A stretch of DNA of 64,000 nucleotides from Marmoricola endophyticus (GTDB lineage Bacteria; Actinomycetota; Actinomycetes; Propionibacteriales; Nocardioidaceae). Under the pieces are notes generated by a model. The model searched no databases. It was not told the DNA's origin and saw only the letters and a program-made list of their open reading frames with translations. The stretch's first letter is position 1, and each line of letters starts with the position of its first letter. The stretch covers positions 1,540,861 through 1,604,860 of the forward strand of contig NZ_BMKQ01000001.1 of the NCBI RefSeq assembly GCF_014644415.1. Reading direction: 5' to 3'. Shown one piece after another: positions 23,092 to 49,765 of the stretch. The translations under genes were made by a program, and so were the position numbers.

Positions 23092-23124
23092 GAAGACCGG
23101 GACCGCGAGGCGGCCCCGGTCTTC
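23092..23124 (-). terminator. Attenuator-like hairpin between groES and groL
   Basis: Perfect 10-bp stem (23092-23101 with 23115-23124) continued by an inner CCGC/GCGG stem across one mismatch. In the direction of transcription it is followed by TCTCGTTCC, a weak pyrimidine tract. It lies about 38 bases before the groL start, so it could cause partial termination or act as an mRNA processing boundary. Confidence 0.55.
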
Positions 23125-23138
23125 GCGGTGTGTCAGGA

Positions 23139-23250
23139 CCTGAGGTGCCTGGCGCCCGGCTGGCAAGGCGGAGGAGGGAAGGCGACCTGAAGAGCGGAGC
23201 GGTCGTCGACCGACGACAACGCCGCCAGCCGGGATGCCAGGTGCCTCAGG
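23139..23250 (-). repeat. Intergenic structured element, copy A (groES 3' side)
   Basis: A long imperfect inverted repeat (arms 23139-23164 and 23224-23250) encloses a 59-bp core at 23165-23223. The core is nearly the same as that of copy B after rpsI (49180-49238). It differs at a G/C change, GAA versus CT, one G indel and CC versus GT. The arms of the two copies are unrelated in sequence but each is self-complementary. The outer arm covers the groES stop codon. An inner hairpin GTCGTC-GGTC-GACGAC is visible on the transcribed strand. Confidence 0.75.
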
Positions 23251-23539
23251 AGACGACGGCGAGGACGTCGCGGGCGGAGAGGATGAGGTACTCCTCGCCG
23301 CCGAACTTGACCTCGGTGCCGCCGTACTTGGAGTAGATGACCTTGTCGCCGACGGTGACGTCGACGGGGACGCGGTTGCCGTTGTCGTCGACACGGCCCG
23401 GGCCGATCGCGACGACCTCGCCCTCCTGGGGCTTCTCCTTGGCGGTGTCCGGGATGACCAGGCCGGAGGCGGTGGTCTGCTCGGCGTCCACGGCCTGGAC
23501 CACGATCCGGTCCTCGAGCGGCTTGATGTTGACCGACAC
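23246..23539 (-). CDS. groES: Co-chaperonin GroES
   Basis: 97 residues, the normal GroES size. It starts [20 protein letters not shown] and includes the mobile loop [40 protein letters not shown] and [15 protein letters not shown]. The GTG start at 23539 is chosen over the longer frame because of GGAGG just upstream and the canonical N-terminus. It caps GroEL. Two CIRCE operators lie 100-160 bp upstream, so HrcA control is expected. Confidence 0.97.
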
Positions 23540-49140: not shown

Positions 49141-49152
49141 AGCTGCAATGGG

Positions 49153-49264
49153 TCTGGGGCCCGTGGCGGAGTGCCTCGCAAGGCGGAGGAGCGAAGGCGA
49201 CCTCTGAGCGGAGCGGGTCGTCGAGTGACGACAACGCCGCGAGGTGCCCGCCACGGGCCTCAGA
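49153..49264 (-). repeat. Intergenic structured element, copy B (rpsI 3' side)
   Basis: Arms at 49153-49169 and 49248-49264 (17 bp, one mismatch) continue as CCTCGC/GCGAGG (49174-49179 with 49239-49244), enclosing the conserved core 49180-49238. The core again has an inner GTCGTC-ACTC-GACGAC hairpin. It begins at the base adjoining the rpsI stop codon and ends 12 bases before the glmM ATG. Same orientation as copy A. Confidence 0.75.
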
Positions 49265-49765
49265 TCAGCGCTTGCTGTACTGCGGCGCCTTACGGGCCTT
49301 CTTCAGACCGGCCTTCTTGCGCTCGATGACGCGCGCGTCGCGGGTCAGCAGCCCGGCCGACTTCAACGACGGGCGGTTCGCCTCGACGTCGACGGCGTTC
49401 AGCGCACGGGCCACGCCCAGGCGCAGCGCACCGGCCTGGCCGGTGATGCCGCCGCCGTGCACGCGGGCGATGACGTCGAAGCGGCCGGCGAGGTCGGTGG
49501 TCACGAAGGGCTCGTTGACGACCTGCTGGTGCAGCTTGTTGGGGAAGTACGAGTCCAGCGGGCGGCCGTTTACGGTCCACTCACCGGTGCCGGGGACGAT
49601 CCGGACCCGGGCCACGGCCTCCTTGCGGCGCCCGGTGGCGGCCGCGGGGGCGATGGTGGCGGGACGGGCCGGCGCGTCCGCGCTGGGTGCACTCTCGGAG
49701 GAGTAGGCGACGCCCTGGTCGTCGACCTGGTAGGTCTCCTCGTTCTCGAACTGGTTCTCAGTCAC
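49265..49765 (-). CDS. rpsI: 30S ribosomal protein S9
   Basis: 166 residues. The conserved S9 domain begins at about residue 44 ([20 protein letters not shown]) and includes [20 protein letters not shown] and [20 protein letters not shown], ending QYSKR, the tail that reaches the P-site. The first 43 residues are an acidic, Ala-rich extension common in actinobacteria. GTG start with GAAGG upstream. Confidence 0.97.

Follow-up and report, generated by a model that had tools for sequence, protein, structure and literature searches.

The two intergenic palindromes considered here, copies A and B, are best explained as members of a large superfamily of MITE-like, non-autonomous palindromes which carry a strand-specific fold and have in part been retained by their hosts, a reading to which we assign roughly even odds (about 0.5). 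Both lie in a 64,000-nucleotide stretch of the Marmoricola endophyticus genome, hereafter the window. The superfamily is united by a two-strand module, GCAAGGCGGAGGAG / CGACGACAACGC, and not by its ends. This module is flanked on its outer side by a long palindrome and on its inner side by a short hairpin that covaries, and the arms are terminal inverted repeats which are unrelated between subfamilies. The core appears to be new; the kind of element that contains it, a MITE or extragenic palindrome, is already known.

Copy A occupies window positions 23139..23250 of the plus strand, between groES and groEL, and copy B positions 49153..49264, also plus, between rpsI and glmM. Gene calls were taken from a GC-frame script and not from an annotation; identities were assigned by NCBIfam for ten proteins, and other group names were read from sequence ends. 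All four genes are on the minus strand, and the core strand, plus in both copies, is antisense to them. Copy A comprises a left arm (23139..23162, plus), a core running from GCAAGGCGGAGGAG...GACGACAACGC with a variable central hairpin (23163..23222, plus), and a right arm (23223..23250, plus), whose paired end contains the groES stop codon (TCA, 23246..23248, minus). The core of copy B spans 49178..49237 (plus), and the rpsI stop codon (49265..49267, minus) falls directly outside the edge of the element. The original prediction had placed both elements at a stop codon and ahead of a further gene on the same strand, and this is how they are arranged.

Both cores run GCAAGG..CAACGC over approximately 60 nt and contain GGAGGAG. 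BLASTN aligned copy A to copy B with an E of 4e-16, over 69 bp only (positions 22-90 of the 112-nt query). The arms show no relation between the copies and are self-complementary within each, and the fold of either strand of either copy outperformed 200 of 200 shuffles (plus -80.0 vs minus -65.4 kcal/mol for copy A; plus -83.3 vs minus -67.1 kcal/mol for copy B). The proposal of two intergenic elements with a common core and unrelated, self-complementary arms is thus borne out. The "almost identical 59-bp core" of that proposal stands as regards a common core of this length and must be relaxed as regards identity, which is 87% over the 69 aligned bp; the core, moreover, includes the variable hairpin. 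Between copy A and the start of groEL, at window positions 23097-23130, inspection by eye showed another short inverted repeat rich in GC, AAGACCGGG..CCCCGGTCTT.

The predicted pairing is genuine. In an RNAalifold analysis of 27 copies, compensatory changes were found in 32 of the 40 predicted pairs, which upholds the earlier view of a conserved structure with covarying arms. The pairing also reaches into apparent internal loops, which are in fact two tandem G-A steps (GAGGAG opposite GACGAC) that swap with Watson-Crick pairs. The two strands of the core were both parsable in 101 of 158 copies; among these, the inner step was GA/GA in 84, Watson-Crick in 12 and otherwise in five, and the outer step GA/GA in 95, Watson-Crick in three and otherwise in three; the pair following these steps was G-C in 50 copies, C-G in 49 and broken in two. 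Across 80 named loci, the central hairpin contained 542 Watson-Crick positions and 14 others, as counted from local alignments, which trim the ends. At the same loci the arms paired much better with each other than with mismatched partners (median scores of 46 and 20, respectively), as terminal inverted repeats should. Just outside the element, pairing dropped to the level of shuffled sequence in an analysis of 148 of the 158 copies. By eye, a further internal loop (GTCGCGA / GCAGCA-like) also appears conserved in the long-type copies L280, L283, L028 and L234, roughly 27 bp outside the core and near the point at which short-type copies end.

Wobble pairs indicate which strand is under selection. 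The paired columns of 161 rows aligned to the model (158 distinct copies and three duplicates) held 5181 Watson-Crick, 850 G-U and 39 A-C cells, with a further 139 G-A, 23 T-C and 143 other, where the units counted are sequences and not evolutionary events. A G-U pair read on one strand corresponds to A-C on the opposite one, and the excess of G-U therefore shows that selection has acted on the plus strand, which carries the core and runs antisense to the gene that the element abuts. An alignment of the Nocardioidaceae arms made independently of the model, and rewarding Watson-Crick pairs only, gave 530 G-T against 21 A-C; the same approach at the 80 named loci gave 211 against 57. At the orthologous nuoA, sufC, rpsI and gyrB loci (32 of 42 copies, aligned to the model and again counted as sequences), one-sided changes produced 25 G-U, three A-C, 21 Watson-Crick and 23 other pairs, and two-sided changes 68 Watson-Crick, eight G-U, one A-C and four other. 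The fold is thus still under selection in place; pairing-breaking one-sided changes, the 23 above, also occur. With the replication origin assumed central, the core strand was the leading-strand template for 11 of 13 listed copies in one Streptomyces genome (24 matches) and for six of 15 in another (16 matches).

The family is large and widely distributed. Within its own genome, BLASTN recovered copies A and B and a third, copy C, between tsf and pyrH. The covariance model R1, built from the 27 copies of alignment A1, matched copy A at window 23132-23254 (E 8.8e-20) and copy B at window 49146-49268 (E 1.3e-24), added a fourth strong copy after nuoA, and in total reported 11 copies at E < 1e-7 and nine more at E 0.005-0.17. 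It matched 15 of 23 genomes in the genus (E up to 1e-5), 158 of 294 in the family (E up to 1e-8) and 97 of 393 in the class (E up to 1e-5), the last in 27 of 122 genera; copy numbers from the family and class searches are lower bounds, as nine to 12 candidates were scored per genome. The exact two-strand core pattern occurred in at least 119 stretches, 80 of which were listed. Those listed include Streptomyces, Kitasatospora, Nocardia, Gordonia, Rathayibacter, Pseudonocardia, Micromonospora, Jiangella, Leucobacter, Propionibacteriaceae and Nocardioides and, outside the Actinomycetota, four Clostridia MAGs. A second model, R2, built from 47 diverse copies, returned between five and 124 matches per genome (E up to 1e-4) in 14 genomes, all picked for holding the core, with the maximum of 124 in a single 1.9 Mb Oscillospiraceae MAG. 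One copy used as a query (L088) had no match in plasmid and phage collections, and a single viral contig (L404, IMG/VR) carried the exact core pattern in a collection of 2.9 million contigs. Four tandem copies at approximately 101-bp spacing, followed by a minus-strand stop, were observed at L066 (G020:C1:146210-146630), and copies are clustered at L167 too. In Nocardioides sp. Soil797 (L300), a copy adjoins, by eye, the apparent stop of tsf, the same locus as copy C.

A covariance search of this genome and of other Nocardioidaceae had been put forward as the check on the prediction, with many covarying copies just after stop codons as the supporting outcome, and such copies were obtained: in 121 of the 158 distinct copies, no more than 30 nt separate the end of the model from the stop of a gene on the opposite strand. 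The two commonest registers, in which the stop coincides with the last paired triplet or stands directly outside it, account for 35 and 27 of these 121. As nuoA alone contributes 16 copies, we note that the same two registers lead when each combination of gene group and offset is counted once (10 and 14 of 64). When the 80 named loci were inspected by eye, a stop at a distance of 53-54 nt from the core was seen on its right in 18 loci (minus-strand stops) and on its left in five (plus-strand stops). Abutting copies in tandem gene pairs were antisense in 85 cases and sense in four, and 64 tandem copies abut a stop with the next gene no more than 60 nt away. In 31 convergent pairs, the edge coincides with the stop of the antisense gene in 27 and with that of the sense gene in 16. 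A palindromic MITE would be expected in both orientations, yet the ratio is 85 to 4, and selection or a directional mechanism is therefore needed. The purging of unfavourably oriented copies from operons was considered as the whole cause and rejected: antisense copies prevail by 64:1 where the next gene is close and still by 21:3 where it is far. Convergent pairs, anchored mainly on one side, also disfavour it.

Nocardioidaceae copies, most of them at the stops of housekeeping genes, are long-lived, vertically inherited at fixed loci, and have kept their pairing on the antisense strand. The 121 stop-near copies fall into 54 groups by upstream gene, the largest being nuoA (16), sufC (13), gyrB (seven, one doubtful), aminobutyraldehyde dehydrogenase (six) and rpsI (six), where one member of each of the largest groups was named by NCBIfam. 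Identity was 0.811 for copies at the same locus in different genomes (284 pairs), 0.750 for copies in the same genome (86 pairs) and 0.733 for pairs of neither kind (6889). Loss is also seen. Among the nuoA-nuoB spacers of the genus, 23 of 24 being readable, the element is present in four, and its core is degraded in one of these. A further spacer (L217, in G020) has arm-like sequence but no core, as though the latter had been deleted, and the other 18 measure 7-69 bp. At one such spacer (L222, in G008) part of the core has been replaced by another hairpin. A comparison of genomes G016 and G004 at nine sites, seven of them alignable, yielded one filled/empty pair at CTAG. Two further sites, nuoA-nuoB and one at which a remnant of an arm persists, appear to have lost the element in G004, and the remaining four were not clean.

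In the high-copy relatives, MITE behaviour is evident. The flanking TNA triplets were identical for 10 of 12 Oscillospiraceae copies, the other two being unreadable, and for six of six in Micromonospora, such that all 16 readable copies of the 18 tested in these two genomes display a target-site duplication. The ends of the Oscillospiraceae, Micromonospora, Streptomyces and Nocardioidaceae elements are mutually unrelated. The genome of M. endophyticus itself contains a core-sharing, MITE-like subfamily (G000:C1, L035-L049) with CTAG-type ends, CTAGGGCGTGTCTCTCAATT / CTAGGGCGTGTCTCTCAATTC, which match at 21 places, namely eight close pairs and five lone ends; several copies bear an extra internal hairpin, CTCCGGGGTCCC... 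A transposase with matching ends was sought in this genome around the CTAG-type ends, three of the five lone ends included, and none was found. Nor was any gene linked to the element among frames of at least 100 aa within 2.2 kb of the 80 named loci: of the 12 clusters listed, those of 10, five and five loci run through the element itself, and the others cover no more than three of the 80. The elements are thus short, without coding capacity and without a linked transposase gene, as is usual for MITEs. For the Nocardioidaceae type to which copies A and B belong, TNA was present at both paired edges in 47 of 148 copies (the 148 used for this and the flank-position counts exclude those of L035-L040, L066 and L067), the N's being complementary in 47 of 47 and identical in none. 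With TNA at both edges in only this fraction and its N's inverted, no direct target duplication is visible in these 148 copies; the window copies are therefore called MITE-derived and not proven MITEs, and any account of the stops in terms of TNA is indirect. The contention that the pattern was not one of simple descent is not sustained, as A and B descend from one MITE-like family.

Other explanations accommodate parts of these data. The main rival, which we nevertheless consider doubtful, holds that the plus-strand RNA, an antisense transcript into the gene end, is itself functional, as a structured terminator or a protein-binding antisense RNA that would stop or mark antisense transcription at the 3' ends of expressed genes. 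RNA-like G-U and tandem G-A pairing on exactly that strand speaks for it, as do an orientation and register that remain fixed even in convergent pairs. However, a two-strand scan of the surroundings of copies A and B for hairpins with loops of 3-8 and a following U-tract found no terminator-like site, and a scan for promoters of the sigma-70-like type, the one type searched, found none around them; the same core, moreover, is found in the high-copy MITEs of Clostridia and Micromonospora. Improbable in our estimation is an element of the 3'-UTR or intercistronic mRNA that acts in stability or coupling within the operon, the role which the original prediction had suggested for testing. The location directly after a stop, the frequent filling of the operon spacer and the compensatory changes in place at orthologous loci would suit such an element. 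Yet the strand that folds runs antisense to the gene it abuts, so that the wobble and G-A pairs lie opposite the mRNA (G-U against A-C, and G-A against T-C, in the 161 rows above) and the role is left without support; the element is, furthermore, easily lost, as its presence in so few of the readable nuoA-nuoB spacers indicates. We find equally little to recommend a largely neutral palindrome whose arms are complementary through template-switch correction of quasi-palindromes and not through selection. Tandem copies exist, and at some loci (e.g. sufC) the arms enter the last codons, as template switching would give. Such correction is strand-symmetric, however, and would erase the G-U and G-A pairs which are here kept with a bias to one strand; conservation of the core between phyla also speaks against it.

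The likeness of small palindromic repeats after stops to REPs, and the single-strand specificity, suggested two further possibilities: a REP/BIME-like element that depends on a RAYT/IS200 (HUH Y1) transposase, or a retroelement that depends on a reverse transcriptase. The Y1 transposase domain (Y1_Tnp, PF01797) was absent from all 24 genus genomes. Reverse transcriptase (RVT_1, PF00078) had matches in three of the 24, two of them over the cut-off; one of the three, G008, carries the element, and the copy-rich G000, G007, G012, G016 and G019 had none. No GTAG/CGTC tag was evident at the left foot, where flank positions left of the paired region reach at most 0.17 bits (148 copies). The missing Y1 domain and tag rule out REP/RAYT membership, and the missing RVT_1 in copy-rich genomes a retroelement, to the extent that we retain only a very slight probability for either. 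REP/BIME elements are likewise palindromic, extragenic and mostly near gene ends, whereas ours is approximately 110 nt long against their 20-40. In PMC3733652, CGTC repeats are assigned chiefly to the alpha-Proteobacteria and those tagged GTAG chiefly to the gamma-Proteobacteria.

No named RNA family fits the element, as had been surmised. Rfam at its gathering threshold returned nothing in the window and only three tRNAs at nine named loci; at nine further loci, with E up to 1, a single sub-threshold match was obtained, to COG3860 RNA in L008, away from the element. The covarying helix and purine-rich internal-loop module are nonetheless like those of structured RNAs in Rfam. The ERIC, BOX, RUP and Correia repeats are likewise intergenic and structured and are regarded as MITEs; to our knowledge, they are confined to narrower groups. 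The element also resembles those bacterial MITEs that are mobilised by DDE transposases of the IS5 superfamily, with TNA or CTAG targets: it is short and non-autonomous, has inverted repeats at its termini and, in relatives, TNA duplications of 3 bp, and reaches a high copy number in some genomes. Unlike these, the element has a strand-specific structured core common to unrelated ends in two phyla and, in the Nocardioidaceae, is oriented, anchored at stops and selected for pairing. The core was not found described in the literature searched, comprising mostly sources other than subscription journals, largely at the level of title and abstract, and including passages of PMC3733652 and PMC12306157.

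The reading of MITE-derived palindromes built around a fold may be put in mechanistic terms. Relatives insert with duplication of a TNA target, presumably by a TNA-duplicating, IS5-like DDE transposase. The stops TGA and TAA are TNA sites, so that an element inserting into one would restore it and be tolerated; stops would be hit, and the copies survive, because the codons are themselves TNA. The short versions of the Nocardioidaceae, with arms of approximately 27 bp and a direct duplication that is no longer visible, remain at stops through vertical descent and retain their fold. When single-stranded, the antisense strand would form a long hairpin, in which the tandem G-A module may serve as a compact cap or protein-binding site; this is the weak step of the scheme. 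Such a cap would allow the long palindrome to be replicated and mobilised, and fixed copies would leave a strand-specific hairpin at gene ends that the host may tolerate or use. Our best guess for the function of the fold is accordingly a single-strand cap or binding site in palindrome maintenance and mobility. Were the cap a mere spacer, its conservation in sequence across phyla would be needless. More tentatively, we entertain a portable palindrome-cap, found at the apex of unrelated palindromes and transposon ends in Actinomycetota and Clostridia and domesticated in the Nocardioidaceae as an antisense end-of-gene element. The tandem G-A module, sandwiched by two different stems, would in this form be what permits long palindromes to exist and to spread.

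Whereas a bacterial MITE is normally recognised by its ends, it is a folded core that is conserved here, flanked by unrelated ends in two phyla, with strong covariation, a clear preference for one strand and no match in Rfam. This predicts a host or transposition factor which reads the fold. The covariance model can be used to annotate many intergenic repeats, and the conserved operon-internal copies, such as those after nuoA, gyrB, sufC, rpsI and groES, offer a direct test of the effect of a mobile element on expression.
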